A stretch of DNA of 64,000 bases from Alphaproteobacteria bacterium (GTDB lineage Bacteria; Pseudomonadota; Alphaproteobacteria; JANQMY01): assembly GCA_028289425.1 (NCBI GenBank), contig JANQPL010000001.1, positions 1 through 64,000 of the forward strand, written 5' to 3'. The stretch's first letter is position 1. Each line of letters opens with the position of its first letter. Below the pieces are notes generated by a model. That model was not told the DNA's origin and searched no databases. It was given only the letters and a program-made list of their open reading frames with translations. Shown here one piece after another: positions 1,839-24,630 of this stretch. Position numbers and translations under genes: made by a program.

Positions 1839-2621
1839 TTATCGGTCGGGGCGGCGCCAGGCCTTGTCGATGAGCGCGGCTTCTTCGTCGGCGCCCAGCG
1901 CATCGCTTTCCATCTGCGCCTGAAGGAAAGCATCAAGCACCGCATTCGCATCAGCAGAGGCTGTCCGATAGCCATCGTCGATCCCCGCCCCCGGCGCCTT
2001 CGATCGCAGTGACAACACCACATCCCAATCAGTGTCGCCGCGACAAGCGACCAGAAGGGTCTGATCGCCCCCTTGGGTGACAACCGTTTCGCGGCAAAAG
2101 CGGCCATCGACCGACCGAAAGGACAAAACCGGTTCGGCCACGCGCGTACCATCAAGGTCGATCCGCTGGGCACTTGCCGTGCGTTCGAACGCGGCGTAGA
2201 GGGGGTCGCCGCTCGAGATGGATTTGGCCGCCAAAAAATCCGTGTTCTGCGCACCGCTGAAGGGATCGTAAAGACCGACCGAATAGCCCAGCACGAGAGC
2301 AACAGAGGCCGCAATCGCTGACGGCCAGAACGGCGCCGGGCCGGCGGGCCGCGGCGTGGCCTTGGGGAATTCAACCACGGTCGATGCCTCTGCGGCGGGC
2401 GCGGCCGCCCTGTTGCGCACCAAATCGATGAATTCCTGGGGCACCTCCGCATCGGCCAGTGGCAGATAGGCCGAACGCACCGCATCGTTTGCTTGCTGCA
2501 GCCGCGCCAAACGGGCATCCAGCTGCTTGTCCTCCAGGACGGCTTTTTCGATTTCCGACATTTGAGCGGCGTCTAGTTCGCCGTCCAAATACGCGGAAAG
2601 AATTTCGTCCGTATAGGTCAT
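1839..2621 (-). CDS. Anti-sigma factor, single-pass membrane protein
   Basis: 260 aa. The N-terminus (LSAYLDGELDAAQ...) is the typical cytoplasmic sigma-binding domain of membrane anti-sigma factors; it lacks the His/Cys zinc motif. One transmembrane segment spans about 98-118, followed by a periplasmic domain of about 140 residues with two cysteines that I do not recognise. The gene starts 15 bp after the sigma-factor stop, so the two are co-transcribed. It should hold the ECF sigma inactive until an envelope signal arrives. Confidence is high for the role and low for the signal. Confidence 0.85.
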   Translation of the reverse strand: MTYTDEILSAYLDGELDAAQMSEIEKAVLEDKQLDARLARLQQANDAVRSAYLPLADAEVPQEFIDLVRNRAAAPAAEASTVVEFPKATPRPAGPAPFWPSAIAASVALVLGYSVGLYDPFSGAQNTDFLAAKSISSGDPLYAAFERTASAQRIDLDGTRVAEPVLSFRSVDGRFCRETVVTQGGDQTLLVACRGDTDWDVVLSLRSKAPGAGIDDGYRTASADANAVLDAFLQAQMESDALGADEEAALIDKAWRRPDR

Positions 2622-2636
2622 TCAATACTCACCCTA

Positions 2637-3134
2637 TTAGGCCGTTTGTGCATCGGCCAACAAATCCGCCAAAGTGCCTCGCGCCCGCGACAGCCGGCTC
2701 ATGACCGTTCCGATGGGAATGCCCAACATTTCCGCCGCCTCTTTGTAAGAATACCCTTCGACGGCAACCAGAGAGACCACAACCCGCTGGTCGTCCGGCA
2801 GTGCCGCCATGGACTGATTGACCTGTTCGAACATAATCCGGTCCATCACGCCTCGCTCTCCGTCCGTCGCGGCGGCCTCGGGCGCGTCGTCGATTGGCGT
2901 GGCGGCCCGCACTTTCCGAGAACGAACTTCATCGATCCAAATGTTCTTGCACACGCGAAACATCCATTTGGCCAAAATAACCTCTTGTGGCGGCGGTTTC
3001 TCCAACAGGCGCTTGACGGTTGCCTGCATCAGATCGTCGGCGTCGTGCCAGGTGCCCGTCAAAGAGAAGCAGAACCGTCTGAGACGCGGGAGCAGCTCCA
3101 ACAGCTCATCTTCATCACCCCTACCTTCGGTCAT
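2637..3134 (-). CDS. ECF-type RNA polymerase sigma factor
   Basis: 165 aa, the usual ECF length. Sigma region 2 lies at about 14-77 (DADDLMQATVKRL, then WMFRVCKNIWIDEVRSRK). Region 4 lies at about 108-158, with the helix-turn-helix YSYKEAAEMLGIPIGTVMSRLSRAR. It sits upstream of its anti-sigma gene and is divergent from the acidic-repeat subtilase. A GGAATAA...CGTT promoter upstream suggests autoregulation. That promoter's -10 ends only 10 bases before the ATG, so the transcript would be nearly leaderless unless another promoter exists. Confidence 0.93.
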   Translation of the reverse strand: MTEGRGDEDELLELLPRLRRFCFSLTGTWHDADDLMQATVKRLLEKPPPQEVILAKWMFRVCKNIWIDEVRSRKVRAATPIDDAPEAAATDGERGVMDRIMFEQVNQSMAALPDDQRVVVSLVAVEGYSYKEAAEMLGIPIGTVMSRLSRARGTLADLLADAQTA

Positions 3135-3144
3135 CTGTACACCT

Positions 3145-3170
3145 AACGTTCATGGCCGCTTGTTTATTCC
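3145..3170 (-). promoter_or_regulatory. Putative ECF promoter of the sigma/anti-sigma operon
   Basis: On the minus strand GGAAT (3170-3166, within the heptamer GGAATAA) is followed by a 17-base spacer and CGTT (3148-3145). The layout resembles alphaproteobacterial ECF promoters such as EcfG-type GGAAC-N16/17-CGTT. The same pattern recurs in front of neighbouring genes of this cluster. Confidence 0.55.
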
Positions 3171-3191
3171 TTTCGAAGACCGCAGTTTAGC

Positions 3192-3216
3192 GGAATAATT
3201 CTGATGCTGAGACGTT
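3192..3216 (+). promoter_or_regulatory. Putative ECF promoter of the acidic-repeat subtilase
   Basis: GGAAT (3192-3196, again GGAATAA) is separated by 16 bases from CGTT (3213-3216). It reads toward the subtilase ATG at 3289, giving a leader of about 65 bases. Together with the oppositely oriented copy at 3145-3170 it makes a symmetric divergent control region. Confidence 0.55.
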
Positions 3217-3221
3217 TACAA

Positions 3222-3246
3222 TCTGAAAATTGGATTAATTTTCAGA
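3222..3246. promoter_or_regulatory. Perfect inverted repeat at the subtilase transcript start
   Basis: The ten-base arms TCTGAAAATT (3222-3231) and AATTTTCAGA (3237-3246) are exact reverse complements around a 5-base centre. The repeat begins about 6 bases after the putative -10, so it is either an operator covering the transcription start or a 5'-terminal RNA hairpin. No matching copy was found elsewhere in the window. Confidence 0.55.
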
Positions 3247-3288
3247 CGGTTAAGGGGAGACGAGAGGGGCACACCCGGCGCACACCAC

Positions 3289-4902
3289 ATGACACGATTT
3301 ACGCTGGCCATAGCGGCGACGATGCTCGCCGTGCTGCTGCTCCTGGGGGTTGAAAACACGCCGCCCTATTCCATCACAGCCGCCTATGCCCAAGACGATC
3401 CCGACGACGATCTGGATGACGACATCGACGACGATATCGAAGACGACATCGAGAGCGACGTGGAAGACGATATCGAAGATGATGTGGAGAGCGATATCGA
3501 GGACAATATCGAGTCCGACATTGAAAGCGATATTGAGTCCGACATCGAAGGCGACATCGAATCGGACATTGAGAGCGACATCGAGGACGATATTGAAGGG
3601 GACATCGAAGGGGATATCGAAGGCGACATAGAAGACGACGTCGAGGATGATGTGGAAGACGATGTCGAAGACGATGTTGAGGACGATGTTGAGGATGACG
3701 TCGAAGACGAAGCGGAAGAAGAAGCAGAGAGCGAACTGGACGACGATCTGGAAGAGCTAGAAGCATCCCAAAAGTCGTCGGAAGCCTTTGAGACGCGGGC
3801 GGCACAAGCGGCGCGGGATACGGTCGACCTAGCCTCCGACGACCAAAACCAAGAAGTGATCGCCAACGAACAGATCCTGCTGCTTGACCCGGACACGGTT
3901 TCCGTACTGAGCGAGCGTGGGTATCGCATCATCGAGCAAGAAGAGTTGGCCGGCTTGGGCCAGGTACTGGTGCGGATCGAAACAGCCGACACTTTCGATC
4001 TTGAACAAGAGATCACGGCCCTCACCGCGAGCGGCCCGCAGAATGAAATCGACTTCAACCATGTTTACCGGGCCCAACAATCGACCGCGCGGCTTGATGC
4101 CCGCGGCTACTCCCCATCGGCCTTTGCCCAAGACAATTCGGCCTGGCAACGCACCCGGCGGAACACCCGCGCCAGGATCGGCTTGATCGACACCATGATT
4201 GATGACCGGCATCCCGCCCTTGATCGCAGCCGTATCGAAACGCGCGATTTTGTCGGCGGGGCGCGGCCGCAAGAACATGGGACAGCGATTGCTTCCATCC
4301 TGGTGGGCGCTGGCGCCGGGTATCAGGGCCTGCTGCCCAATGCGCGCCTCATGGCCGCTTCGGTCTTTATCGACCATTCGAACGCAGGCGACATTGCGCC
4401 CACCGATCTTTTGGTGCGTGCGGTCGACTGGATGGTGTCGAGCCGCGTGGGCGTGGTCAATATGAGCATTGCAGGGCCGCCGAACCGGGTGCTGGCGGCG
4501 GCTTTGGCACAGGCATCGGATCTGGGCATTGCGTTTCTTGCCGCTGCCGGCAATAACGGGCCCAATGCGCGGCCCGCTTATCCCGCAGCCTATGAGACGG
4601 TTGCGGCGATTACGGCCGTCGACACGGACAATCGCGTCTACCGACGCGCGGGGCGGGGGCCCCACATCGATTTCGCTGCTCCCGGCGTCGATATTCTCTG
4701 TGCTGATCTTTCGGGTAGCTTTACCACCGATTCAGGCACCTCCATGGCCGTGCCGTTTGCGGCGGCCGTCTTTCTCAGCCAATGTTCTGGATCTTATTGC
4801 GGGAACGTGCCCCGGATTATGTCCGATCTGGGGCGCCGGTCGATTGACTTAGGCGCAAGCGGCGTCGATCCGGTCTATGGCTACGGCCTGATCCAACCGT
4901 AA
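3289..4902 (+). CDS. Secreted S8 (subtilisin-like) serine peptidase with acidic tetrad-repeat N-terminus
   Basis: 537 aa. The signal peptide covers 1-34 (cleavage after AYA). Residues 36-155 are a four-residue acidic repeat, Asp/Glu with Ile or Val at every fourth position, about 27 units. Residues 190-265 look like an inhibitor-type propeptide. The catalytic domain has Asp301 (GLIDTMID), His330 (QEHGTAIAS), oxyanion Asn422 (AAAGNNG) and Ser485 (SGTSMAVPF), so it should be active. The peptidase part is short but complete. The repeat resembles the stand-alone acidic protein at 6.2-6.7 kb. A divergent ECF sigma and a shared promoter pattern suggest envelope-stress control. The substrate is unknown. 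Confidence 0.88.
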   Translation: MTRFTLAIAATMLAVLLLLGVENTPPYSITAAYAQDDPDDDLDDDIDDDIEDDIESDVEDDIEDDVESDIEDNIESDIESDIESDIEGDIESDIESDIEDDIEGDIEGDIEGDIEDDVEDDVEDDVEDDVEDDVEDDVEDEAEEEAESELDDDLEELEASQKSSEAFETRAAQAARDTVDLASDDQNQEVIANEQILLLDPDTVSVLSERGYRIIEQEELAGLGQVLVRIETADTFDLEQEITALTASGPQNEIDFNHVYRAQQSTARLDARGYSPSAFAQDNSAWQRTRRNTRARIGLIDTMIDDRHPALDRSRIETRDFVGGARPQEHGTAIASILVGAGAGYQGLLPNARLMAASVFIDHSNAGDIAPTDLLVRAVDWMVSSRVGVVNMSIAGPPNRVLAAALAQASDLGIAFLAAAGNNGPNARPAYPAAYETVAAITAVDTDNRVYRRAGRGPHIDFAAPGVDILCADLSGSFTTDSGTSMAVPFAAAVFLSQCSGSYCGNVPRIMSDLGRRSIDLGASGVDPVYGYGLIQP

Positions 4903-4942
4903 CGGCGCGATTGCCGCCGACGGCCAGCAGCAACCGCGCCTA

Positions 4943-5082
4943 GATCACGATCATTTTAGGTGGAATCATCCCAAAAAGATAAACGTGATCTAATTCAATA
5001 AATCAGAGCGGGATCGAACGGAGTTAAACGCCGAAGGCGTTTAACGCACACGTTCGGCAAGCCTCACTCCCGATCCCGCTCT
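4943..5082. terminator. Two consecutive long hairpins between convergent genes
   Basis: The first hairpin has arms GATCACG (4943-4949) and CGTGATC (4984-4990), with further pairing inside. The second has 12-base outer arms (5005-5016 with 5071-5082) enclosing a perfect 10-base stem (5023-5032 with 5036-5045, loop GAA). The block lies between the 3' ends of the subtilase and barrel genes, so it could stop transcription from both sides. It lacks a clear T-run and resembles dispersed palindromic intergenic elements of alphaproteobacteria. Confidence 0.5.
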
Positions 5083-5094
5083 AGGCCGCTATTG

Positions 5095-6063
5095 TTATAG
5101 TTCGGCCCCAATCCGGAACGTCGCCACGCTTTGCGTGAAGTCCACCGACGGCAGGTTCGAATTGAAAATGTCGTAATTGTATTCAATCTCAGCGTAGAAA
5201 ATGTCGTTGAGCGGGATCTCGAGCGATGCTTCCAGCTTGTGCCGTGTATCGTCCCGGACCACGCCGATGGAGGGTGTTACGGAATCGTAGTTGCGGTTTT
5301 CATACCGCCATCCGGCGCGAAACTTCGCCCTGCGGTCCCCCAGCGGGAAACGTTGGACGACCCTGGCCTTTAGATTATTGGCAGTGAAGTCAAATTCCGC
5401 GCCCACCGCATCCTCGGATTCGAATTTGTAACCGAAGATCAAATACGTCGTTAGTCCGTTGACGAAGTAAAAGACGTCCGCATTGAACGCATTTACATCC
5501 GCATCGCGGTCAGCCACGCCGATGAAGTCTTTGTCCGTATAGATGTACGATCCGCGCACATAGAACGTCTTGTCGGCAAGATATGTGGACGCGAAGGGCG
5601 ACAGCCGATGAAGCGTGAGGAATCCGTCGCCGCCAAGACGTGAGTGAATAAGCTGGTACGAGACACCGATATCCACATCGCCGAAATCATGGGCAACTTC
5701 GATGGAGCCCCGATGGGTCTGAGTGTTAAAGTCCGTGAAGTCGAACTGGATGTCCTGACCGAGATCATAGCCGATTTCCACGGTGGTATTCTCGGCAATG
5801 TCCGTTTCAAAACCGACCCCCAAATCGAACAGGGCTGCGAAGTCGCCTTCCGCCGTGGACGTGTCCACTTCGACAACAGACACGTTGCTGTCATATTCGA
5901 TGCCGGTGCTGAGCTCGATCGAAAACGGGCTTTCCTTCACCCGTTCGATCCAGCTTGTGTCGTCATCGTCGTCCCGATAGCCGTCCTGAGCAACCGCGCC
6001 GGAGATAATCAGCGCCGGCGCGAGAAGCCCAGCAGCCACCAAATGTAACGATTTCTTTTTCAT
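5095..6063 (-). CDS. Outer-membrane beta-barrel protein
   Basis: 322 aa from ATG 6063, which has a GAGGGA ribosome site; an upstream TTG start is less likely. The signal peptide ends near SGAVAQ, and the mature protein begins with a run of five Asp. The rest is alternating amphipathic beta strands rich in Tyr/Phe and Asp (for example STGIEYDSNVSVV, GYDLGQDIQFDF), ending in FRIGAEL, typical of outer-membrane barrels of about 12-16 strands. No exact family is recognised. It is convergent with the subtilase and downstream of the acidic protein, inside the putative ECF regulon. Confidence 0.75.
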   Translation of the reverse strand: MKKKSLHLVAAGLLAPALIISGAVAQDGYRDDDDDTSWIERVKESPFSIELSTGIEYDSNVSVVEVDTSTAEGDFAALFDLGVGFETDIAENTTVEIGYDLGQDIQFDFTDFNTQTHRGSIEVAHDFGDVDIGVSYQLIHSRLGGDGFLTLHRLSPFASTYLADKTFYVRGSYIYTDKDFIGVADRDADVNAFNADVFYFVNGLTTYLIFGYKFESEDAVGAEFDFTANNLKARVVQRFPLGDRRAKFRAGWRYENRNYDSVTPSIGVVRDDTRHKLEASLEIPLNDIFYAEIEYNYDIFNSNLPSVDFTQSVATFRIGAEL

Positions 6064-6124
6064 CTTTCCCTCTGCAGCCAAAAACTATTAGGGCTTCACC
6101 GAAACGCAGGTTCAAGCTTTCACC

Positions 6125-6149
6125 GACAGATACACTAGAGAGGTGTTCC
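6125..6149 (-). promoter_or_regulatory. Weak ECF-like promoter upstream of the barrel gene
   Basis: Minus strand: GGAAC (6149-6145), a 16-base spacer, TGTC (6128-6125). The -35 matches and the -10 differs at its first base from CGTC. It lies about 60 bases upstream of the barrel ATG. Confidence 0.3.
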
Positions 6150-6247
6150 GTGTCGGCCGTAATCGGTTCTTCCTAGAAACGCAATTGCTTTTTCCATGTC
6201 ACGGCCGTGCACGATCAGGTGCCGAACCTGCAATTCGAGATGCTCCC

Positions 6248-6730
6248 CTAGTCGTCCCCTCTATCGTCATCGACATCTTCTTCAACGTCGTCGTCGATTT
6301 CGTCGTCCACCTCGTCCTCGACGTCGTCGTCGATTTCATCTTCTAACTCGTCGTCGACGGCATCATCGATTTCGTCCTCCAATTCATCGTCGACCTCATC
6401 TTCGATATCGTCATCGACTTCCTCGTCCACGTCGTCGTCAATGTCGTCATCGACGTCATCGTCAATTTCATCATCGATATCGTCCTCGACATCGTCGTCT
6501 AAGGCCTCATCCGCCTCATCGTCCGCATCGTCATCAATCTCGTCGTCGACATCGTCGCGAACGTCATCCACGCCTTCGTCGAATTGGGCCAGGATCACCT
6601 GCGGCGATGGATTAACCACCGCCAAACCCTTGCCGACCGCCGGTAAAGCCGCTGCCGGCGTGGCATGCACGCTCCACCCAAGCGAAAGGGAAAGAGCGAT
6701 AACGGAACTGTATGTGCTGTGTTTCAGCAT
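6248..6730 (-). CDS. Secreted poly-acidic tetrad-repeat protein
   Basis: 160 aa from ATG 6730 (GAAAGGAC ribosome site). A signal peptide covers about 1-29 (ends near ATPAAA). After a short linker, residues about 52-160 are nearly continuous acidic tetrads, Asp/Glu with a Val/Ile/Leu/Ala every fourth residue, and no Cys, Trp or aromatic residue. Nothing catalytic is visible. The composition predicts a highly charged, perhaps Ca2+-binding or disordered surface protein. It shares its design with the N-terminus of the subtilase 1.3 kb away, so the two may interact or bind the same partner. No known family is recognised. Confidence 0.75.
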   Translation of the reverse strand: MLKHSTYSSVIALSLSLGWSVHATPAAALPAVGKGLAVVNPSPQVILAQFDEGVDDVRDDVDDEIDDDADDEADEALDDDVEDDIDDEIDDDVDDDIDDDVDEEVDDDIEDEVDDELEDEIDDAVDDELEDEIDDDVEDEVDDEIDDDVEEDVDDDRGDD

Positions 6731-6821
6731 GATTTTGTCCTTTCTTTCGTGATCTCCCCCCGAGATCGGCCCAAATTGCAGCAGCTTGTTGCCCACGGTC
6801 TTTGAGCTCTACGCGCCCGGC

Positions 6822-6846
6822 GACGTCACATCGATCGCGCGCTTCC
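6822..6846 (-). promoter_or_regulatory. Possible ECF promoter of the acidic protein
   Basis: Minus strand: GGAAG (6846-6842), a 16-base spacer, CGTC (6825-6822). It overlaps the end of the response-regulator gene and lies about 90 bases upstream of the acidic-protein ATG. It fits the cluster pattern except for the fifth -35 base. Confidence 0.35.
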
Positions 6847-7530
6847 TTCTTCTTTTGCCAAGATTTTGTACCCACGCCCGCGGATCGTTTTCAGATAACT
6901 CTCCTTCTGATCCGCATCGATCTTCTTACGGAGCTTGCCGATATACACGTCGACGATGTTTGTCAGCGGGTCGGCATTGGTACCCCACACATTGCTCAAA
7001 ATACGTTCGCGGCTAAACACTTTCCCCGGGGACCGCATGAGCAGTTCCAATATGGCCAGTTCTTTAGCCGTCAAATCGATCAATTCATCCGCCCGATGAA
7101 AATCGAGCGTTTCCAGGTTGAGGGAAAGGTCGCCGACTTCGATGATCTTCTGCACATGTTCGAAACGCCGGTTGCGTCTCAGCTGCGCATCGATACGGGC
7201 GAGCAATTCGTCGAACGCAAACGGTTTTGGAAGATAGTCGTCCGCCCCAAGACGAAGCCCTTCGATGCGGTCTTCAAGCGTGTGCATCGCGGTTAACATG
7301 ATAATCGGTGTGAGGACGCCTGCCTTTCTCAGCTCTTGGCACACATCCAGCCCATGCATGCCGGGCAGCATCAAATCAAGAATGATCAGGTCATAATTGA
7401 CCTGGAGAGCAAGATCATGGCCGTCTTGCCCGTTTTCCGCATGGTCCACGCCGTACCCTTCGGCCCGAAGTCCGCGAAGCAGAAAATCGGCGACACGCGT
7501 ATCGTCTTCCACCACCAGCAACGACATCAT
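6826..7530 (-). CDS. OmpR/PhoB-family response regulator
   Basis: 234 aa. The receiver domain (about 3-115) has the acidic pair Asp9/Asp10, the phospho-acceptor Asp52 (IILDLMLPG), Thr80 and Lys102 (YLPKPF). The C-terminal winged helix (about 135-228) ends with the family block YLKTIRGRGYKI. The partner is probably the histidine kinase upstream, although 231 bp separate them. That gap contains a GGAATAA...CGTC promoter, so the regulator can be made independently of the kinase, apparently under the ECF sigma. Confidence 0.92.
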   Translation of the reverse strand: MMSLLVVEDDTRVADFLLRGLRAEGYGVDHAENGQDGHDLALQVNYDLIILDLMLPGMHGLDVCQELRKAGVLTPIIMLTAMHTLEDRIEGLRLGADDYLPKPFAFDELLARIDAQLRRNRRFEHVQKIIEVGDLSLNLETLDFHRADELIDLTAKELAILELLMRSPGKVFSRERILSNVWGTNADPLTNIVDVYIGKLRKKIDADQKESYLKTIRGRGYKILAKEEGSARSM

Positions 7531-7701
7531 TCTTACCCAGCTTGGCCATTAACCACTTTGTTTTGCGTAAGGCCTTTTTTTGCCGCAGACCCTTTGTCCA
7601 TTCGGGGCATTGAGTGGTGTTGATCCTCCCCACGCCAAACTGGAGGAGGCCAGTTACTTCGGCGTCGGAACAAACCAGCGCCACTCGCTGCCTGTTGGAT
7701 A

Positions 7702-7727
7702 GACGGTTTTGCCTCCAGGTTTATTCC
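7702..7727 (-). promoter_or_regulatory. Putative ECF promoter of the response regulator
   Basis: Minus strand: GGAAT (7727-7723, within GGAATAA), a 17-base spacer, CGTC (7705-7702). It lies in the 231-bp gap between the kinase stop and the regulator start. It is the third exact GGAATAA in this cluster with the same spacing. Confidence 0.5.
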
Positions 7728-7761
7728 GTAGACCGCACCGAAAATGCTCTTTGGACGCCAA

Positions 7762-9414
7762 TCAAGCGACTGACTGCAGTTCTCCCTCCCGTGGCAAGAC
7801 GATGGTCACTGTGGCGCCTTCGCCAAGCGTGCTGTCGATGTCGATCTGTCCGTTATGAGCATCGACGATCGCCTTCGCGACAGGCAGGCCGAGCCCCATG
7901 CCCTCCTTGTTCTGCGACGCATTGTTGCCGCGGTAGTAACGCTCAAAAACATGGGCCAACTCTTCCTTCGCGATGCCGATGCCGCCGTCATTAACCGTAA
8001 CGACCACGCCGCGCGGACCGGGCGCGGAACGAATGGTCACCGTGCCGCACTCTGACGAATAGCGAACCGCATTGTCGATGACGACCGAAAACACCTGCCG
8101 CAAACGCCTTCGATCGCCAAGGACGACCAAGTGATCCTCGGCAAGGTTGGTCTGCAACGTAATCTGACGCTGTCCGGCAAAGGCCTTGAAATCCTCTGCC
8201 ACGTTTTGAAGCAGCTCATTGATGGCAACCGGCGTTGCATCCAATCTTGGTTGTCCCGCATTGGCCCGGGCCATAAACAACAGATCGTCGACCAATCGCG
8301 AGGTATGGTCCGCTTGATCGACAATGCGCCTAAGGCACGCTTGATAGTCACCACTTGTCTTGTCACCACCGCGCAGGGTGATCTCGGCTTCGCCGCGGAT
8401 AACCGTCAGCGGCGTGCGCAATTCATGGCTGATATCGGCAAAAAACCGGCGGCGCAGCCGATCCGCATCCGCGAGGGTCTGGTTGGCGGCTTCCAGCTCT
8501 TGTGTACGCTCGTTGACGATCCGCTCCAGCGAATTGTTCGTGTCGATCAAGTGTTGCCGATTGCGGCTCAGTTCTTCTGCCATTTGATTGAACGCGTGCC
8601 CAAGTCGATCGAGTTCGGGATCATCCAATTGGGGAAGCCGATGCTCCATCTCGCCACGTGTGAGCGACGCCGCCCCTTCCGACAACTGAGCAAACGCCCG
8701 GTTGATGCCGCGCGATAGGAAGGTGAGCATCAACAATATGATCGGCAGAGATAGCGCCGCATTGGCCGTGGCAAGTAACTCCAGAAAAATCGACATATTC
8801 TGGGCTTGCGCGTCTGTGCGCTGCACTTCGCCGCGCTCATCGGCCAGAATATCCGCCAAATAAAACATGAACTCGCGATCAAACCGCGAAGCAATCGCGT
8901 CCAGCCGACGCATGACCTCCGGATTTTCAAGCGTGGCGGATTCTTGTTTTAGAGTCTCAAAGTCTTCTAGAAACTTCTCCAACCCCGCTTCGATCTTAAT
9001 CAGCCTCAGACTTTCTTCAGCTTCTTCCGCCTTTTCTTGCGGATCATTGGCGACAAAGGCGATTTCTTCCGCCGTCAGATTGTGCAGCTTGTTCACATCG
9101 ATGCGGATCGCCGCGACCAATTCTTCGTTGAGCGTTTGGTCCCCCGACCGGTCCGACAGCGTGTCCTGATACAGGTTGCGTAATAGCCAATTGGATTTCT
9201 TGGCGATGGATACGTAAAGCTGCAGTTGTTCATGCGCCAGTCGACTGCGCTCAAGATAGTAGATCGACCGTTCCGATCCGAAATACGACACCGATGCACC
9301 GATCAGTATGATGATGATCATGAAGAGAAAAGCGATCATCAATCGCGTTCTGAATCCGATACGTCGAAATAGGTCAGTACCATCGGGCAAAATGCGCATT
9401 GTTTTGCTCGTCAA
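7762..9414 (-). CDS. HAMP-domain sensor histidine kinase
   Basis: 550 aa. A first membrane segment (about 23-45) and a second (about 213-235) enclose a helical periplasmic sensor of about 165 residues. HAMP and coiled coil follow (about 236-320). The dimerisation domain carries the phospho-acceptor His330 (FFADISHELRTPLT), and the ATPase domain has DNAVRYS, DGGIGI and GMGLGLPV motifs, all intact. The gene starts 2 bp after the ABC-exporter stop, so exporter and kinase are co-transcribed. The response regulator follows after 231 bp. The signal is unknown. Confidence 0.92.
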   Translation of the reverse strand: MTSKTMRILPDGTDLFRRIGFRTRLMIAFLFMIIIILIGASVSYFGSERSIYYLERSRLAHEQLQLYVSIAKKSNWLLRNLYQDTLSDRSGDQTLNEELVAAIRIDVNKLHNLTAEEIAFVANDPQEKAEEAEESLRLIKIEAGLEKFLEDFETLKQESATLENPEVMRRLDAIASRFDREFMFYLADILADERGEVQRTDAQAQNMSIFLELLATANAALSLPIILLMLTFLSRGINRAFAQLSEGAASLTRGEMEHRLPQLDDPELDRLGHAFNQMAEELSRNRQHLIDTNNSLERIVNERTQELEAANQTLADADRLRRRFFADISHELRTPLTVIRGEAEITLRGGDKTSGDYQACLRRIVDQADHTSRLVDDLLFMARANAGQPRLDATPVAINELLQNVAEDFKAFAGQRQITLQTNLAEDHLVVLGDRRRLRQVFSVVIDNAVRYSSECGTVTIRSAPGPRGVVVTVNDGGIGIAKEELAHVFERYYRGNNASQNKEGMGLGLPVAKAIVDAHNGQIDIDSTLGEGATVTIVLPREGELQSVA

Positions 9415-9416
9415 CG

Positions 9417-11111
9417 TTAGATGTCCGCAACCGCACGAAGGTGTGTCGATTCGTTAACTGAAGACGGATTGGAGGCGGATTTTATTTCAATAGTGCCGTC
9501 AGTTAGGTCCCACAGCTGATCGGCCATGGTTAATATGGCGAGAGATTTGGTGGCGATCAGGGTGGTCTGGCGCCGCTGGGCAAGCAAATCCAGCAGGGTG
9601 CGAAAACCGGCTTCGTCCAACCCCAGATCCGGCTCATCCAGCAACAAAAGGCGTGGGGTCCCGGCAACGGCCCGCGCAAGTTGAACACGTGCGCGCCACC
9701 CCGCCGAAAGCTCGCCGCCCCCTTCCGAAATCCGTGTGTCCAGGCCGGCCGGCAGGAGATTCAACAGCTCCGAGAGCCCGCACACGGCAATTATGTCGTC
9801 CAAAGCGTCTTCGGACAGGCGTGGCCTCCGATAGGTGATGTTTCGGCGAAGTGTCCCGCGCAGCAACGGGATTTCGGCGGAACAAACGCCGATGGCTTGC
9901 CGCAGATGCTTTTGTTTTGTTTCGAAAAAGTTCGATCCGTCGAGGGAGATGCCGCCACCATCCACATCAATGAGTCCGGCGGCCGCCAGCAGCAGAGTGG
10001 TTTTGCCCGACCCGTTGGCCCCGGTGATCGCCACCAATTCTTTTGGGCGCACGTCGGCACTGAACTGATGCAAGACGGGATCGATCCGGGCATCGGTAAA
10101 TTGAAGCCGTCCGTTTCCCTTGGCCAACGCAGCCCCTTTCCGCGGTCCGGATTTCAACTGTCGGATGGCCAAAAGATTGCCGATCTTTTCCCGAGCAACG
10201 GAAAAATTTCGCCAGCGGTCGAACACCGAAGCGAGTTCTTTTAGCGGCGTAACAAGCAGGCTGAGCGTGGTGAGGATGGCAATCACCGCTCCAGGGGTAG
10301 CCGTCCCGCGAGCGATTTCGGCCGCACCCATGATGATAATGACGGCAAGCGCGAACGAAGCGGCAAAGTCCGGAATGCCCACTACCATGGTGGAATGGCG
10401 GCGACGGCGCACGCTGGCGTCGATCACATCGCGCGATCGTGCCGCAAGCCGGCGTTGTTCGCGGCGGGCCTGACCAAAGGCATCGACGACCGTGGCACTT
10501 GTCAGCTTTTCGCCAAGCTCGCCAGCCATTTTGCCTTTGTTTTCTCTGGCCGTCGCATGGCGGGCGCGAAGGGAATGGCGGGCGACAAATATCGCCACGA
10601 AGCTGCACATCAACATGGCCGCAACGACCGCCACGATCTTCGCGTGGATCGTCATCAACACCGCGGTCACGATCGGCAATACGATCGCGGCAACCGTGAT
10701 CTTCGAGACACCATTGGCGATCCAACCGCGGACAGCGCCCAAATCGCCGACAAACCGCACCATAAGGTGGCCGCGGCGCTTCCGGCGAATCGCTCTGTAA
10801 TCGGCATTGACCACCCTGCGGAAAATGCGCTGCCGTAATTGCGCGATGTAGTCTTGAGCCATCGCCTCGGCTGCGCCGCGCTCCACAATGCGCAACCCAT
10901 AGATGGCAGCTCCCGCAAGTGCAAAACCAACGCCCGCCAGAACCGCTTCGGTCAGAGGGACAGGGCCTTCGCTGCGAAGCAGACTGTCAAACGTGTGCCT
11001 GATGAGGAGAGCCGTGGCGCCCGCCGCGATGGCTTGCCCCAGACCGCACGCGACAACGACGGCGAAGTGTTGGCGGCGACCTGGGGCAAAGAGCGGGGGC
11101 CAACCGCTCAT
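9417..11111 (-). CDS. ABC exporter (fused TM and ATPase) with degenerate ATPase motifs
   Basis: 564 aa. The N-terminal half has five to six membrane helices (about 15-280) like type-IV ABC exporters; the ATPase half starts near 335. Walker A is intact (GANGSGKTT, 364-372), as is Walker B with its glutamate (LLLLDEPD). The signature is LSAGW instead of LSGGQ, the Q-loop glutamine is missing (CSAE at 410-413), and the H-loop histidine is replaced by Thr521 (IATKS). It may hydrolyse ATP poorly or work with a partner. It overlaps the upstream P-loop gene by 4 bp and adjoins the kinase, suggesting a transporter-sensor module. Confidence 0.85.
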   Translation of the reverse strand: MSGWPPLFAPGRRQHFAVVVACGLGQAIAAGATALLIRHTFDSLLRSEGPVPLTEAVLAGVGFALAGAAIYGLRIVERGAAEAMAQDYIAQLRQRIFRRVVNADYRAIRRKRRGHLMVRFVGDLGAVRGWIANGVSKITVAAIVLPIVTAVLMTIHAKIVAVVAAMLMCSFVAIFVARHSLRARHATARENKGKMAGELGEKLTSATVVDAFGQARREQRRLAARSRDVIDASVRRRRHSTMVVGIPDFAASFALAVIIIMGAAEIARGTATPGAVIAILTTLSLLVTPLKELASVFDRWRNFSVAREKIGNLLAIRQLKSGPRKGAALAKGNGRLQFTDARIDPVLHQFSADVRPKELVAITGANGSGKTTLLLAAAGLIDVDGGGISLDGSNFFETKQKHLRQAIGVCSAEIPLLRGTLRRNITYRRPRLSEDALDDIIAVCGLSELLNLLPAGLDTRISEGGGELSAGWRARVQLARAVAGTPRLLLLDEPDLGLDEAGFRTLLDLLAQRRQTTLIATKSLAILTMADQLWDLTDGTIEIKSASNPSSVNESTHLRAVADI

Positions 11112-12193
11112 GCTGCGATAGGTTGTTCAGGCGGCAGAATCTCGCCCCTATTGACGGGTACCATTTCATGCGCTTCCAACAGTGGCGCGAGAGTTTCCGG
11201 TTGCAGTAGGTCTTGCCGGGTCAGCACCGGCACACTTGTCTGCGAGGCAACTTCGCGGCATCCAAGCGGCGACGCAGAGATCTTGCCACTCACTCCGAAC
11301 ACGTTGAGGCCCGCGTGCATCAACACCTGAACACCAGCGATTGTTCCAAGCGCGTCCGCGCCGGCGAACAAAGCTGCATCCACCAATTCGTGGAATGAAA
11401 CATTGCGCACCAAATCACCCGTTTCGTTCTGAAGCACGCCATCAGCAATTTCGAGAACGTAGGCATCGGCGCCCGCGGCGCTAAGGTGGGAAACAAGGAC
11501 TGAAACAATGTGCAGCAGTTCCCGGCTGCTGAGACCGACCGTGGTTGCATAGCCCACATCCGTGAAGTCCAGGACTTCGACCGCGCCAGCATCCGCCATT
11601 TTGAAGTAGTCGCCGAAAGCACCCGTACCGGTGACCTTGGCCGCACCCACTTTGAAGCCGCATTTGGTCAACCCATGCACGAGAGACGCAGCGGTGGTCG
11701 TCTTCCCGGCATTCATGGACGAGCCGAACACTGCAAAGACCGGTCCTTGCGCCCGAATGCTGCTCGCCGGTAGGCCGAATTGGCCGATATTGATGACATC
11801 CCCGCCACGGTCGGCGAGAAGGCCATGCACCTTAAGGCGTGTGGGCTCCTTCATGGAAGAATGGGCATTGACGATCGTACCGGCAACACCACCGGCTGCA
11901 ACGAGATCGCAAAAGCCATCCACGATTGTCGGCACACTTTCGAACTGATCGGGTGCGTAGCGCGCGCCCACGCACAGCGCCAGATTGTCGCCCTGATAGA
12001 TTTCGGCGCGCCGGCCAGCGGCCAATTGAACACCCGTATGCTGGCCGATGGACAGGACTTCCGCGCACAAAAGATCGCCGGGCCGGGCCTGTGAGAAGTC
12101 GCTGATCAGATGAGATGGGTCATTGTGAGACACTCTTCGTGTCGTGAAGGCCCATTTCATTTGCGGTATGTTTGTTCGGTTAAGTCCCGACAT
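11108..12193 (-). CDS. P-loop NTPase-domain protein (DUF1611/MobB-like)
   Basis: 361 aa. A P-loop (GSSMNAGKTTTAASL, about 157-171) is followed by KVGAAKVTGTGAFGD and ADAYVLEIADGVLQ, a layout shared by DUF1611-type and MobB-like nucleotide-binding proteins. The first 140 residues form a separate domain with no recognised motif. No signal peptide is visible, so it is cytoplasmic. It is the first gene of the operon leading into the ABC exporter (4-bp overlap) and the histidine kinase. Its reaction is unknown, and the family assignment is tentative. Confidence 0.6.
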   Translation of the reverse strand: MSGLNRTNIPQMKWAFTTRRVSHNDPSHLISDFSQARPGDLLCAEVLSIGQHTGVQLAAGRRAEIYQGDNLALCVGARYAPDQFESVPTIVDGFCDLVAAGGVAGTIVNAHSSMKEPTRLKVHGLLADRGGDVINIGQFGLPASSIRAQGPVFAVFGSSMNAGKTTTAASLVHGLTKCGFKVGAAKVTGTGAFGDYFKMADAGAVEVLDFTDVGYATTVGLSSRELLHIVSVLVSHLSAAGADAYVLEIADGVLQNETGDLVRNVSFHELVDAALFAGADALGTIAGVQVLMHAGLNVFGVSGKISASPLGCREVASQTSVPVLTRQDLLQPETLAPLLEAHEMVPVNRGEILPPEQPIAA

Positions 12194-12568: not shown

Positions 12569-13954
12569 ATGACCGACGCAGTAATTGTTGCGCCGTCCTC
12601 ACGGCCAGGGAGTTTCCCCTCATCGGCGTCCGACGCGGTGACTGCCGGTGGCGCGCCTGCCGGTTTCAACCCGGCGCCGGATGTGGTGTCCACCCTTTCG
12701 GGGATGCGGGTCGGCTTCGTTCTCAATTACTTCCCGGTTTTGTCCGAAGCGTTTATCGCCTATGCCGCGGCAGCTCTAGTCAAATGTGGCACCGACCTGT
12801 CGTTGTTGCCGCTCTACCGGCTTGAAGCCGAAGACCCGCCCCATGCCCCCATCGGCATTCTTGCCGGAAACGATTTGTCTGAACGGGTGACGTCGCCCCG
12901 GTTCAGCGACGAAGGCATGAAGCGGCTGATTCACGCGCCTGCTGTCATTCTGGCGGACGCCCTTGCACAAGGGCCCCGGGCCATTCGTCCGTTCGACCGG
13001 CGCTTGCGCGTTCCTTATGAGCGGGAAGCCTTCCAGGGTCTGGACAAATTCGATGTCCTGCATTGCCAGTTTGGCAGCCTTGCCGCGCCTATATTGCAGC
13101 ATCGCCGAGAAGGAACACTGCAAGGCAGGCTGGTGGTTCACTTCCGCGGATATGACATTACTAAATGGCTTACGCTGTTCGGATCTGATTTCTATACGGA
13201 AATATTCGACTGCGCGGACCGCTTTCTTACTAATTGCGATCACTTCAAGCAAAAACTGATTGAGATGGGTTGCCGTGAAGACTTGATCGACGTGGCGCCG
13301 TCCGGTCTTGACCTCAGCGCGTTTCCGTTCTCGCCCCAACCCAAATTCACCAACGAGCGTGTACGGCTCCTCACGGTGGGGCGCCTGACGGAAAAGAAGG
13401 GCATTGGCGATGGGATTCACGCCCTGTCGATTGCCCGCAAGAATGGCATTGACGCGCATTACCGCATTATCGGTGAGGGACATTTGCGCGATGAACTCGA
13501 AGCGCTGGTCGCATCGCTTGGTTTGTCGGAATTTGTCGACCTGCCGGGCGCGATGCCGCACGACAAGGTGAAGTCGGAATTTCAAGATGCCGACATTTTC
13601 CTGGCCCCCAGCATTACGGCAGCGGATGGCGACCAAGACGCGCCTGTAAACACTTTAAAGGAAGCCATGGCGCTGGGCGTTCCCGTTATCGCAACCCAAC
13701 ACGGCGGTATTCCGGAACTCGTCCATGACGGTCAGAACGGTTTGCTGGCACCCGAACGCGACCCGGAAACCCTGGCGAAACATATTAGCCGCCTCGCATC
13801 AGAGTCAGATCTGGCCGACCGCTTTATTGAGGCGGCACGCCAAGAAGTTGAAGCCAGATGGTCACTTGAATATGCCACGAAGGTCTATGCGGAAGCTTAC
13901 ACAAAGGCCTTGGCGGCCCCTCCCCGAGATCCCGTTTTAAAGACATCCAGTTAG
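12569..13954 (+). CDS. GT4-family glycosyltransferase (colanic-acid WcaL/AmsK-like)
   Basis: 461 aa, cytoplasmic, GT-B fold. The recognisable part begins at about 46 (MRVGFVLNYFPVLSEAF). The C-terminal donor-binding half has LLTVGRLTEKKG, IIGEGHLRDEL and the E-x7-E region TLKEAMALGVPVIATQHGGIPELV. It is like WcaL/AmsK enzymes of exopolysaccharide synthesis. The first 45 residues are Ala/Ser/Pro-rich, so translation could instead start at ATG 12704. It is followed directly by a GT2 enzyme and a convergent flippase, making a small surface-polysaccharide locus. Confidence 0.87.
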   Translation: MTDAVIVAPSSRPGSFPSSASDAVTAGGAPAGFNPAPDVVSTLSGMRVGFVLNYFPVLSEAFIAYAAAALVKCGTDLSLLPLYRLEAEDPPHAPIGILAGNDLSERVTSPRFSDEGMKRLIHAPAVILADALAQGPRAIRPFDRRLRVPYEREAFQGLDKFDVLHCQFGSLAAPILQHRREGTLQGRLVVHFRGYDITKWLTLFGSDFYTEIFDCADRFLTNCDHFKQKLIEMGCREDLIDVAPSGLDLSAFPFSPQPKFTNERVRLLTVGRLTEKKGIGDGIHALSIARKNGIDAHYRIIGEGHLRDELEALVASLGLSEFVDLPGAMPHDKVKSEFQDADIFLAPSITAADGDQDAPVNTLKEAMALGVPVIATQHGGIPELVHDGQNGLLAPERDPETLAKHISRLASESDLADRFIEAARQEVEARWSLEYATKVYAEAYTKALAAPPRDPVLKTSS

Positions 13955-13960
13955 GTGAGT

Positions 13961-15046
13961 ATGATGACAACGGACAACCAGACCACATCCAATCCGAAAG
14001 TCACGATTATTGTGACGCCGCGCGAGCGATTTGGTGTCGCGAAGAAGAGCCTCGAGAGCATCTACGAATTCACGCCGGAACCGTTCGACCTTGTCTATGT
14101 GGATGGGTCTTCGCCGGCGGAGCTATCGGAATGGATTGCAACTCAAGCAAAAGAACGCGGTTTCGATCATGTTCGCTTCGATCATTTCTTGTCGCCAAAC
14201 GAAGCGCGCAATATCGGCGTGGCCCGCTCTCGTACTGAATACGTGGTCTTTTACGACAATGATGTGATTGCAAGCCCCGGATGGCTCAGCGCTCTTGTTC
14301 AGTGCGCCGATGAAACCGGCGCGGCGGCCGTCACGCCGCTCACGTGCGAAGGCGTTCCGCTTCACGAGAAGATCCACCAGGCGGGTGGCTTGTTCACCCG
14401 TGACGTGGACAAGTTTTTTGGCACACCGAAGGGTGAGCGCGACTTGATCGATGACATGATTCTGCAAGGCGAAGCCGTCGAAGAAGAAGCACCGAAGCTG
14501 GAACGCAGCCCGACACAGAACTGCGAATTCCATTGCGTTCTGGCCCGCCGATCGATCTTTGACCGGATCGGTCCGCTGGACGAAGAGTTGTTGGCCACCA
14601 AGGAACATCTGGATTTCTGCATGAGCATCGCTCAAGCGGGCGAGAAGGTCATGTTCGAGCCCAAATCGATCGTCACCTATTTGTTCCCCAATCGGCATAA
14701 CCCGATGACGCGTGAAGACTGGCCATACTTCTTGCTGCGGTGGTCCCCCACCTGGCAACAGCGAAGCATGGAGCGGTTGCAAGAGAAGTGGGGCCTGAAG
14801 TCCGACGGGTTCATGGAGATCCGCCGGGGCATGTATCGTTGGCGGCACATTGAAGGCATTCTTGTGCCGGAACTGAAGCGTGTGCCCGTCCTAGGGTCCA
14901 ACCGTCTTTGGGTGAAAATCGGCAAGCGGCTGTTTTCGCCGCTGATCCGGCTCATGAGCGCCAACGTTGTCGCCAAGGATGATCGCCGGCGGCGTGCCGA
15001 AGATCAGTCTCGGCCTTCAGATGTTATGAAAACAAAAAGCGCTTGA
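13961..15046 (+). CDS. GT2-family glycosyltransferase
   Basis: About 361 aa. Three starts are possible just after the upstream stop: GTG 13955, ATG 13961 and ATG 13964; an AGGTGA site at 13953-13958 favours an ATG. The GT-A fold is shown by VTIIVTPRERFGVAKKSLES, then NEARNIGVARSRTEYVVFYDNDV with a DND metal motif, and EEL...TKEHLDFC. It likely adds a sugar to a lipid-linked oligosaccharide. It is co-transcribed with the GT4 gene and overlaps the convergent flippase gene by 23 bp at the 3' ends. Confidence 0.85.
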   Translation: MMTTDNQTTSNPKVTIIVTPRERFGVAKKSLESIYEFTPEPFDLVYVDGSSPAELSEWIATQAKERGFDHVRFDHFLSPNEARNIGVARSRTEYVVFYDNDVIASPGWLSALVQCADETGAAAVTPLTCEGVPLHEKIHQAGGLFTRDVDKFFGTPKGERDLIDDMILQGEAVEEEAPKLERSPTQNCEFHCVLARRSIFDRIGPLDEELLATKEHLDFCMSIAQAGEKVMFEPKSIVTYLFPNRHNPMTREDWPYFLLRWSPTWQQRSMERLQEKWGLKSDGFMEIRRGMYRWRHIEGILVPELKRVPVLGSNRLWVKIGKRLFSPLIRLMSANVVAKDDRRRRAEDQSRPSDVMKTKSA

Positions 15047-16502
15047 TGCCTTCCACGTCACGGGAGGCAAGCCGGCGAACCAGATTTTTGAAGTCTTCCC
15101 GTTCGCCGGCCGTCGACAGTAGATAAAGCAGGCTTGGGTAGATGGCCGCACCCGCGGCGACCATCGCCACGAGGGTCAAAACCGGGTGAGCTGACGCAAG
15201 CAACACTTTTTCAATGGCAAGTACGGCTATGAACATGCCAATGGCCGCCGCGAAGGCGGGTGCGCCGGCCATGAGCTGTTGCTTAACCGTCAGATCACAG
15301 ACTTTATACACATAGTGCGCCGAAAGTGGCCAAGTCACCAGACGTCGTACCAGCACGGCCAGTGCCACGGCCTCCAATCCATAGGGCAACGCGATCCATA
15401 CCAAAATGGAAATGAGGATCAAATTGATGATGCTGAGCGTGATCGTAAGATCCGTTCGGTCGAATCCCTTTATCACGGCACCGTTCAATTCGGTGACCGC
15501 CGATCGAAGCCCGATGAACAGCAGAATTTGGGCAGCGACCCCCGATTGGGCCCATTGGCTTCCAAAGATCAACGGAATTGCCATTGGCGCCACCGCGGCC
15601 ACGCCAAGGAATATGGGATAAGTCACGTTCGTACTGAAAGACAGCGTGCGCAAGAACGAATGCCGAAATTGCGCCACGTCTTTTCGCATCGTCGCAACCG
15701 CCGGCAGGGCCACATTGCGAACGGGCGCAAGCAGCAGTGTGTTGATCCGCTCAAACGCGTTCCAGGCGATGACAAAGACACCCAGTGCCGCCACGCCCAG
15801 ATAGGCCCCCACCGCAAGACGGGGAATCTGCAAGGTGGCTTGGGTGATCAGAGCCGCAAGGAATGTGTTTGTGGCGAAGGCCCGCATCTCCTGAACTGCC
15901 GACCAGCGGATGAAGCCTGTCGGCCGCCATCCGGCAGCGCGCCAGAACAAGGCGAGCGTCAGCGTGTATTCGACAAAAGCCGACGCCACAAGGCTCCACA
16001 CGCCAAACCCGGAGGCTGCCATGGTGACCGCGGTCAGCCCTGCGGCGATGAGCGATGCCATGTTTGTCGCGGCAATTTCCCGAAACCGCAGGGCGCGGCG
16101 CAGCATGGCAAGCGGCACGGCTCTTAGACCAATCGGAACAAGAAGGAAGGCATAGACCCGCAGCACATCGGCCAGGTCATCGCGGCCAAACAAGGCCGCC
16201 AGTGGGTCTGCAAACAATGATAGGAGCCCCGCGAACGCAATGGCCACAAAGATGGCGATCCAGAAACAGGAGTTTGAGTGATCTGAGTTCAACGGATCGC
16301 GCTGAACGAGCGTCTCGGTAATCGTCTTGCCTAGGAACATATCCACGAAGGACAAAACCACCCAGGCAAGAGCGATGATGCCGAAAGCTTCCGGACCGAG
16401 CAGGCGCGCGGTCGCCACGAACACTAGGAACGAGACGAGCGACCCCGCCCAAGAACCCAGGCCCGCCCAAATAGCGCCGCGGATGATGCGTCGTTCAACC
16501 AT
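15024..16502 (-). CDS. Oligosaccharide flippase / O-unit translocase (Wzx-like)
   Basis: 492 aa, 12-14 predicted membrane helices across the full length. The N-terminal pattern (RGAIWAGLGSWAGSLVSFLVFVATARLLGPEAFGIIAL) is typical of the polysaccharide-synthase flippase family (WzxC type). The terminal segment is cytoplasmic and basic. It should move lipid-linked oligosaccharides across the inner membrane. It is convergent with the two glycosyltransferase genes, with their 3' ends overlapping, so antisense interference at the ends is possible. Confidence 0.88.
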   Translation of the reverse strand: MVERRIIRGAIWAGLGSWAGSLVSFLVFVATARLLGPEAFGIIALAWVVLSFVDMFLGKTITETLVQRDPLNSDHSNSCFWIAIFVAIAFAGLLSLFADPLAALFGRDDLADVLRVYAFLLVPIGLRAVPLAMLRRALRFREIAATNMASLIAAGLTAVTMAASGFGVWSLVASAFVEYTLTLALFWRAAGWRPTGFIRWSAVQEMRAFATNTFLAALITQATLQIPRLAVGAYLGVAALGVFVIAWNAFERINTLLLAPVRNVALPAVATMRKDVAQFRHSFLRTLSFSTNVTYPIFLGVAAVAPMAIPLIFGSQWAQSGVAAQILLFIGLRSAVTELNGAVIKGFDRTDLTITLSIINLILISILVWIALPYGLEAVALAVLVRRLVTWPLSAHYVYKVCDLTVKQQLMAGAPAFAAAIGMFIAVLAIEKVLLASAHPVLTLVAMVAAGAAIYPSLLYLLSTAGEREDFKNLVRRLASRDVEGIKRFLFS

Positions 16503-16821
16503 TGTGTTCGATTAGCGTCGCACCGGTCCGGTTGGAATCGGGCTGCAACACAAGATACCCCTGTCTGCCATGGGAACCGCGATGGTACACCCAGAATCGA
16601 GTTTCGGACAGAAACGTTAACAAGTTGATCATGCTTAACGCTTCGTTAACGCGCGGTGTAAAGCACATAGATCAGCAGATTAAGGGTGGGCGCGCCTTGT
16701 TCCATATTCCGTGATCGAATAGCTTTTGCGCTTCCGGCAGCGAGAGATGTGCTGCAAGAACAAACGAAATCGCATCACGGGTAGCAAAACGAATGTTAGA
16801 TCGGCTCCGCGCCAAGCCAGT
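16503..16821. other. Intergenic region upstream of the PQQ locus (319 bp)
   Basis: It separates the flippase start from the start chosen for the PQQ-linked ABC ATPase and must contain promoters for both directions. CGTTAA and TTAACG motifs recur near 16615-16655, with CGTTAAC and GTTAACG forming a loose inverted repeat. No clear promoter pair, RNA gene or terminator was recognised. Confidence 0.4.
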
Positions 16822-17562
16822 ATGCTGAAAGTCTCTCAGCTGTCCTTCGCTTACAACGGCATCGCGGCATTGGACAATGTCACGCTCGCGGTTGAACGTG
16901 GGAAGGTCGCAGCTTTATTGGGCCCCAACGGCGCCGGCAAATCCACTTTGATGTCGATCATCACCGGTCAGTTTGCCGCAAAGAGCGGCCACGTCACGAT
17001 TGACGGCCGCGATGTGGCACGGCAACGGCCCCAGGCCCTTAAAGCGACGGGCATTGTATTCCAATCGCCGACGCTTGATCTCGATCTGACGGTTGCTCAG
17101 AACCTCAGCTATTTCGGTGGACTGCAAGGAATGACGCCGGGTGGTGCCCTGGAAAGCGCCACCCCATGGCTTGATCGGTTCGAATTGGCAGAACGCCGAA
17201 ACGACAAAGTCCGCATATTGAGCGGCGGACAAAGGCGGCGGGTCGAGATTATCCGTGCCCTGCTTCACGACCCCAAGCTTCTCTTGCTGGACGAACCGAC
17301 GACCGGTCTTGACGTGCCCACACGCCAATCGATTGTTCGGCTGGTGCATGAGCTTGCCGCCGAAAAGCAGGTCAGTGTCTTATGGGCAACCCACTTGGTC
17401 GATGAAGTTTATGAAACGGACGATCTGGTGGTACTGCAAAACGGACGGGTAATCGATACAGGTCTGTGTACGGACGTAATGGATCGCATGGGAAAATCGG
17501 ACCTGGCGGCGATTGCCGGCGGAAGCGGCCCCACAGACCAATTGGCAGGGCGAACGTCGTGA
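16822..17562 (+). CDS. ABC transporter ATP-binding protein, PQQ locus
   Basis: 246 aa from ATG 16822 (MLKVSQLSFAYNG), where homology to ABC ATPases begins; the frame is open for 32 more codons upstream, but that part is unlike the family and the ribosome site here is weak. Walker A GPNGAGKST, signature LSGGQRRRVEI, Walker B LLLLDEPTTGLD and H-loop WATHLVDEV are all intact. It pairs with the permease that follows with a 4-bp overlap (GTGA). Similar ABC-2 pairs flank pqq genes in other alphaproteobacteria; export of PQQ or a related role is inferred, not proven. Confidence 0.85.
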   Translation: MLKVSQLSFAYNGIAALDNVTLAVERGKVAALLGPNGAGKSTLMSIITGQFAAKSGHVTIDGRDVARQRPQALKATGIVFQSPTLDLDLTVAQNLSYFGGLQGMTPGGALESATPWLDRFELAERRNDKVRILSGGQRRRVEIIRALLHDPKLLLLDEPTTGLDVPTRQSIVRLVHELAAEKQVSVLWATHLVDEVYETDDLVVLQNGRVIDTGLCTDVMDRMGKSDLAAIAGGSGPTDQLAGRTS

Positions 17563-18374: not shown

Positions 18375-18459
18375 CGGTCCCACAGGCCCCCTATATCTAT
18401 GGGCAATCGGGTTCTACGCACTGGGCTACGGCCCAAGGTGCCAATCAGGAGTTCTCAAA

Positions 18460-18537: not shown

Positions 18538-18570
18538 TCGGCGGAAACGCCTTTCCACATTGGTCCGGGG

Positions 18571-20219: not shown

Positions 20220-20225
20220 CGCGCG

Positions 20226-24625: not shown

Positions 24626-24630
24626 ACGCT

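Follow-up and report, generated by a model that had tools for sequence, protein, structure and literature searches.

A conserved alphaproteobacterial gene block that may form an envelope-response regulon of the ECF26 type linked to an export module

A block of genes at positions 1839 to 12193 of a 64,000-nucleotide stretch from an Alphaproteobacteria bacterium (assembly GCA_028289425.1, contig JANQPL010000001.1, positions 1 to 64,000 of the forward strand; here, the window) probably constitutes, though with considerable room for doubt, one envelope-response regulon under an extracytoplasmic function (ECF) sigma factor of the ECF26 type, to which an export module is attached. Relatives in several bacterial classes keep the genes together with matching control sites, and on this sequence evidence the genes probably make up one cell-envelope response unit. 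Signal and function are inferred, and the most likely outputs are secreted proteins that are polyanionic and probably bind cations, a protease whose leader has the same polyanionic character, and the export module. An initial annotation of this DNA had described the ECF sigma/anti-sigma pair, an acidic subtilase, an acidic protein, an outer membrane barrel, a response regulator, a kinase, an ATP-binding cassette (ABC) exporter, and a P-loop protein as contiguous, and all of them are located in the block as listed below. In this list, G001 is the only genome of the same genus that was found, and G678 is a genome of another family from our phylum-wide sample.

1839..2621, minus strand: membrane anti-sigma factor (zf-HC2 and anti-sigma model matches; 28% identity to the Sinorhizobium meliloti pSymA homologue)
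2637..3134, minus strand: ECF sigma factor, ECF26-like (Sigma70_r2 and Sigma70_r4; 45% identity with the S. meliloti rpoE6-locus sigma factor)
3145..3170, minus strand: ECF26-type promoter before the sigma/anti-sigma genes (GGAATAAACAAGCGGCCATGAACGTT; kept in G001)
3192..3216, plus strand: ECF26-type promoter before the subtilase gene (GGAATAATTCTGATGCTGAGACGTT; kept in G001)
3289..4902, plus strand: secreted subtilase (signal peptide, acidic tetrad leader at about residues 36 to 152, prodomain-like part, S8 catalytic domain)
5095..6081, minus strand: outer membrane beta-barrel, 14 strands, CymA/OmpG-like (weak OMP_b-brl match; probable start, 6063)
6248..6730, minus strand: stand-alone secreted acidic tetrad protein (annotated open reading frame to 6796; counterparts in G001 and G678)
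6826..7530, minus strand: OmpR-type response regulator (Response_reg and Trans_reg_C)
7702..7727, minus strand: ECF26-type promoter before the response regulator, acidic protein, and barrel genes (GGAATAAACCTGGAGGCAAAACCGTC; same place in G001)
7762..9414, minus strand: sensor histidine kinase (HAMP, HisKA, and HATPase)
9417..11111, minus strand: ABC exporter half-transporter (ABC_membrane and ABC_tran)
11108..12193, minus strand: SIMIBI-type P-loop NTPase with a beta-rich N-terminal domain (Walker A, GSSMNAGKT)

In transcription order, the P-loop, ABC, and kinase genes overlap or abut one another and are followed, after a gap of 231 bp, by the response regulator, acidic protein, and barrel genes. 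Because an ECF26-type promoter lies inside this gap, which splits the kinase from the regulator, we group the regulator with the acidic protein, whose gene sits directly downstream, and not with the kinase. Thus, of the single operon previously proposed for the regulator, kinase, ABC, and P-loop genes, the latter three stand, whereas the regulator belongs to the operon of the acidic protein and barrel. The sigma/anti-sigma pair, the subtilase, and the regulator operon are apparently co-regulated through the common motif. The sigma factor has regions 2 and 4 only and is followed by the anti-sigma gene, as in the ECF26 arrangement; the label ECF26-like rests on comparison with one sigma factor, that of S. 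meliloti pSymA.

In G001, the whole block is present in the same order (P-loop, ABC, kinase, regulator, acidic protein, barrel, divergent subtilase, ECF, and anti-sigma genes), with different neighbors at both flanks. Protein identities between the window and G001 range from 41% (anti-sigma factor) to 84% (regulator), and the acidic protein of G001 retains the signal peptide and the tetrads. The anti-sigma, ECF, tetrad-leader S8 (subtilase), and barrel genes of G678, together with a gene for a 252-residue tetrad protein, stand in the order of the window, and the best 30 residues of this S8 leader contain 77% Asp plus Glu; no P-loop gene was detected in G678, and no kinase or regulator gene was called near its acidic protein. 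When we asked, as the initial annotation had proposed, whether the neighbors are conserved with the acidic proteins, the core of anti-sigma, ECF, acidic subtilase, barrel, and acidic protein genes was found whole in the window, G001, and G678; the refuting outcome named there, neighbors scattered and acidic proteins occurring on their own, was thus not observed for this core.

A search with the P-loop protein alone, using one genome per species (84,980 species), returned 395 relatives, and 80 loci were kept. The ABC exporter gene adjoins the P-loop gene in most of these loci, and in 21 of the 80, from alpha-, beta-, and gammaproteobacteria, ECF and S8 genes lie no more than about 10 kb away. 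Two loci, L028 (Parvularculaceae) and L037 (a Hahella metagenome-assembled genome), additionally carry the barrel, relatives of which were found in G001, G678, G587, and G710 as well. A small acidic lipoprotein is encoded beside the barrel in L028, while no tetrad protein was called beside it in L037 or G587; the G587 locus comprises genes for a DUF5666 lipoprotein, the barrel, an acidic S8 protease, the ECF sigma factor, and the anti-sigma factor. Plain same-genus synteny was rejected as the full explanation, as parts of the core are also found in G678, which belongs to another family, and in L037 and G587, which belong to other classes. No DUF5666 protein was found in the genome of the window, although one is present at the locus in G587 and L028. 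Multi-DUF5666 proteins are encoded at L190:2784-5333 and L028:13297-15501, the former with an ECF26-type site about 130 bp upstream.

Since the core exists in G678 without the P-loop gene and P-loop/ABC loci exist without the ECF part, the two modules are separable, and the window holds both. Judged from these gene neighborhoods, the operon of P-loop, ABC, and kinase genes is a linked, separable module that is preceded by the ECF26-type motif in many relatives. The earlier proposal of one surface system is partly borne out by synteny and promoter motif: the genes are kept together and appear to be co-regulated by the ECF sigma factor, with the P-loop, ABC, and kinase genes linked to them but separable. 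In the same proposal, the protease may process, or be anchored by, the acidic protein or the barrel.

The motif was scanned as GGAATA-N15/16-CGT(T/C), and this pattern picks up RpoE6 sites already published for pSymA; GGAATA/GT has been reported as the consensus for ECF26 (PMC6180224). Across loci, the motif lies upstream of the P-loop gene in 26/95 (about 0.1 expected), of ECF genes in 30/50, and of regulator genes in 5/23, and it also precedes genes for a hydroxylase (c16, 5/12), a lipoprotein (c24, 3/5), and an acidic-loop barrel (c25, 6/11), the background being about 0.001 expected per gene, as estimated from 400 kb. Genes inside operons are almost devoid of it (ABC, 0/69; histidine kinase, 0/28; hydrolase c2, 2/56). 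A trimmed S8 model and a misplaced gene start made the S8 genes unusable in these counts, and S8 sites were taken from separate site scans instead. One site lies upstream of the genes for two small poly-Asp proteins in G569, and another upstream of the acidic protein and barrel genes in G678. The motif stands before the regulator gene in the window, in G001, and in three further loci; as the regulator thus carries its own ECF-type promoter, the sigma factor is suggested to feed the two-component system. Exact matches elsewhere in the genome, at G000:C15:26010-26034 (L222), before a gene for a membrane-fusion-like protein, and at G000:C7:280476-280500 (L216), before an FAD oxidoreductase-like gene, may represent further regulon members or chance.

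The subtilase matches Peptidase_S8 (E 1e-23), and its catalytic triad (D301, H330, and S485) and oxyanion residue N422 are invariant in the family alignment. Its leader comprises 117 amino acids, with 64% Asp plus Glu and no Lys or Arg. The stand-alone acidic protein, which by comparison with the G001 protein most likely starts at 6730 and not at 6796, has 69% Asp plus Glu in its repeat. Hydrophobic residues are paired at lag 4 in both proteins, with 27 pairs in the leader (shuffle mean, 6.3; maximum, 13) and 25 in the stand-alone protein (shuffle mean, 7.2; maximum, 15) against 2000 shuffles each. The 12-bp DNA units of the tetrads match one another at just 67 to 78%, indicating that the protein repeat is maintained while the codons drift. 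A search of the 5.4-Mb genome with the protease as query gave matches at these two places only, the subtilase and the acidic protein.

Taking at least 50% Asp plus Glu over 30 residues as an acidic segment, we found one in 16/29 S8 proteases with an ECF26-type sigma factor nearby and in 0/34 without one (two samples). A strict tie between the acidic leader and the P-loop gene, which an initial count of 8/8 versus 2/34 genomes had indicated, was rejected once the comparison was restricted to S8 proteases with an ECF26-type sigma factor and a phylum sample was added: of the 29 such S8 proteases, the segment is present in all 9 from genomes with a P-loop gene and in 7/20 from genomes lacking one, which suggests an association only. 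This second count no longer includes the G030, G038, and G042 loci. Small secreted proteins encoded beside P-loop/kinase operons in L131 and L204 consist of EF-hand parts followed by poly-Asp tails. In the 1.24 Mb surrounding P-loop genes, 15 acidic-tailed secreted open reading frames were counted, whereas 400 kb taken from other parts of four P-loop genomes, a small background sample, contained none. The acidic composition varies widely among relatives (tetrads, poly-Asp, Asp-Gly, and Glu-Asp). Because poly-acidic segments recur in unrelated secreted proteins of these neighborhoods, a shared physical partner is hinted at. Two Vibrio loci (L065:9438-9836 and L085:9398-9814) each encode, between a kinase/regulator pair and the P-loop/ABC operon, a small secreted protein that combines a PepSY-like part (judged by eye, with no Pfam match) with a poly-Asp tail.

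The AlphaFold model of the barrel (predicted local distance difference test [pLDDT] score, 72.8) has 14 strands and, at modest confidence, CymA and OmpG as nearest Foldseek matches. The P-loop protein, whose family has many invariant residues, was modeled with a pLDDT of 94.8, and its Foldseek matches are BioD (dethiobiotin synthetase), HypB, and signal recognition particle GTPases. An identity with DUF1611/DgcN was rejected (PF07755, 14.5 bits versus a gathering cutoff of 25). The ABC exporter scores under each curated NCBIfam exporter cutoff among the matches listed, and identification as the CydDC thiol exporter was likewise rejected (TIGR02868, 193.7 versus 329.05 bits; TIGR02857, 184 versus 435 bits). 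Recurrent neighbors of the P-loop/ABC pair are an alpha/beta hydrolase (c2, 36 loci), Porin_O_P barrels, and an Asp/Asn beta-hydroxylase-family protein (c16, PF05118; seven of L026-L104 plus L129, L130, L132, L134, and L135). Several PF05118 genes beside P-loop/ABC genes are preceded by an ECF26-type site. A defense system was discarded as a candidate, as PADLOC returned generic subtilase and ATPase matches only.

The sigma/anti-sigma/protease part of the block is not new, because an ECF26 pair with a divergent homologous protease and the motif has been published: in S. meliloti, rpoE6 and the serine protease gene that it targets are divergent, and that study reports no function for RpoE6 (PMC6180224). 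The rpoE6-ecfR6/SMa0142 locus shares with the window a homologous sigma factor (45%), anti-sigma factor (28%), and subtilase (37% identity to the pSymA protease of strain 1021, with 97% of the query covered), the divergent layout, and the promoter motif, and its protease has six Asp residues right after the signal. In contrast, the long tetrad leader, the second acidic protein, the barrel, the regulator operon with its site, and the P-loop, ABC, and kinase genes are not seen there. Thus, the initial view that the combination is undescribed has to be narrowed to these partners: acidic-repeat proteins, a 14-strand barrel, and a P-loop NTPase plus ABC exporter as partners of an ECF26 pair were not found described in a literature search that covered subscription journals little.

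Other known systems resemble single parts of the block. CymA and OmpG share the 14 strands and the fold with the barrel but only 12 to 13% identity, and we found no description of a link between these porins and an ECF regulon. The P-loop domain is of the same broad class as that of DUF1611/DgcN (weak PF07755 match), whereas the window protein lies below the gathering score, has another N-terminal domain, and has an ABC partner nearby. RTX proteins of type I secretion likewise combine Asp-rich repeats with a nearby ABC exporter; the tetrads of the window, however, are almost without Gly, lack the Gly-rich nonapeptide, and belong to proteins with Sec-type signals, and no fusion or TolC-like gene was called in the block.

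In the regulon that we favor, the periplasmic domain of the anti-sigma factor, in which C176, R177, C193, and W199 are invariant in 38/38 relatives, would sense an envelope condition, most simply a change at the invariant cysteine pair. The freed sigma factor would activate its own operon, the subtilase gene, and the operon of regulator, acidic protein, and barrel. As secreted and probably unfolded polyanions, the acidic repeats may bind divalent cations or a basic envelope partner. As the acidic leader lies ahead of the prodomain-like part, a subtilase that processes itself would set free an acidic piece similar to the stand-alone protein. The barrel may serve as a passive outer membrane channel and the kinase may report on the envelope, while the P-loop enzyme and the ABC exporter would make or load, and then export, a product. 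To our knowledge, neither a signal for ECF26 sigma factors of this arrangement nor a role for their divergent protease has been established; this locus offers a larger predicted ECF26 regulon with visible outputs, the conserved cysteine pair is a concrete sensor candidate, and the P-loop/ABC pair is widespread.

A wider generalization is plausible but held more tentatively, at somewhat short of even confidence: a hitherto undescribed multi-phylum envelope system with a core of SIMIBI NTPase and ABC exporter, in which the secreted poly-acidic proteins coupled to this core would serve as a portable module for cation binding or docking. The module would occur in stand-alone proteins, in EF-hand- or PepSY-like-tailed forms, in barrel loops, and in protease leaders. 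Control of the system would lie with an ECF26-type sigma factor, with a two-component system, or, as in the window, with both.

Several observations weigh against a single regulon. Neither in the window nor in G001 did the pattern scan find an exact motif upstream of the P-loop gene. Exact GGAATA-N15/16-CGTT has 21 matches genome-wide versus 11 for the reversed control, and the motif alone is therefore weak outside promoter positions. The sampled genomes and species are related and not independent, so that enrichment p-values overstate certainty, and the barrel model was built on four sequences. Furthermore, the P-loop, ABC, and kinase genes occur without the ECF part in loci seen from Vibrio, actinobacteria, and cyanobacteria, and ECF/S8 loci lack a P-loop match in most sampled genomes. 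This pattern, like the P-loop/ABC loci that have a kinase and regulator yet no ECF gene near, would suit two independent neighboring systems, namely, an ECF26/protease/acidic regulon and a two-component-controlled P-loop/ABC exporter with no functional link. Such independence seems unlikely to us in view of the 26/95 loci in which the motif stands upstream of the P-loop gene, of its position before the regulator in the window, G001, and three other loci, and of the S8 subtype, which is present in 8/12 alphaproteobacterial genomes with a true P-loop match versus 37/375 others.

The product of the P-loop/ABC pair may instead be central, with the hydrolase and hydroxylase of relatives modifying it or the Asp-rich proteins, and with the acidic proteins as carriers, substrates, or self-protection. 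The recurrence of c2 (36 loci), c16 (seven loci and five more), and Porin_O_P barrels and the motif before c16 in 5/12 speak for such a biosynthesis and export function; we nevertheless regard it as improbable, given that hydrolase and hydroxylase are missing from the block of the window and that the acidic proteins have Sec-type signals and need no ABC exporter. PF05118, moreover, includes lipid A hydroxylases. By analogy, the stand-alone acidic protein might be an accessory of the adjacent kinase, binding its sensor domain and setting its activity, as DbfQ and PA2658 do in other bacteria (PMC12714742). It resembles the small periplasmic PepSY proteins of the DbfQRS and PA2658-BqsRS systems in being a small secreted protein encoded next to a regulator and kinase (PMC12714742), and acidic-tail proteins beside P-loop/kinase operons in Vibrio (L065 and L085) and in G224/G733 fit this role. 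However, the window protein carries acidic repeats instead of a PepSY domain (no Pfam match), an ECF pair and exporter are linked to it, and the acidic protein of G678 has no kinase or regulator called near, which leaves the accessory role doubtful. That the acidic repeats are low-complexity drift with no role is very improbable. Their composition does differ widely among relatives, but the lag-4 pattern is strict, the codons have diverged under a maintained protein pattern, acidic segments are limited to S8 proteases with an ECF26-type sigma factor (16/29 versus 0/34), none occurs in the 400 kb of background from four P-loop genomes, and promoter sites lie directly upstream of acidic genes.

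Beyond the block, positions 12569 to 21589 of the window contain glycosyltransferase-like and flippase-like genes, an ABC-2-type exporter, and pqqB-, pqqC-, and pqqE-like genes, which are not beside the block in G001. At positions 23099 to 28539, genes for a FecR-domain protein, an outer membrane protein with tetratricopeptide repeats and a barrel-like part, and a large, divergently encoded protein whose C-terminal part is cyclase-like are clustered.

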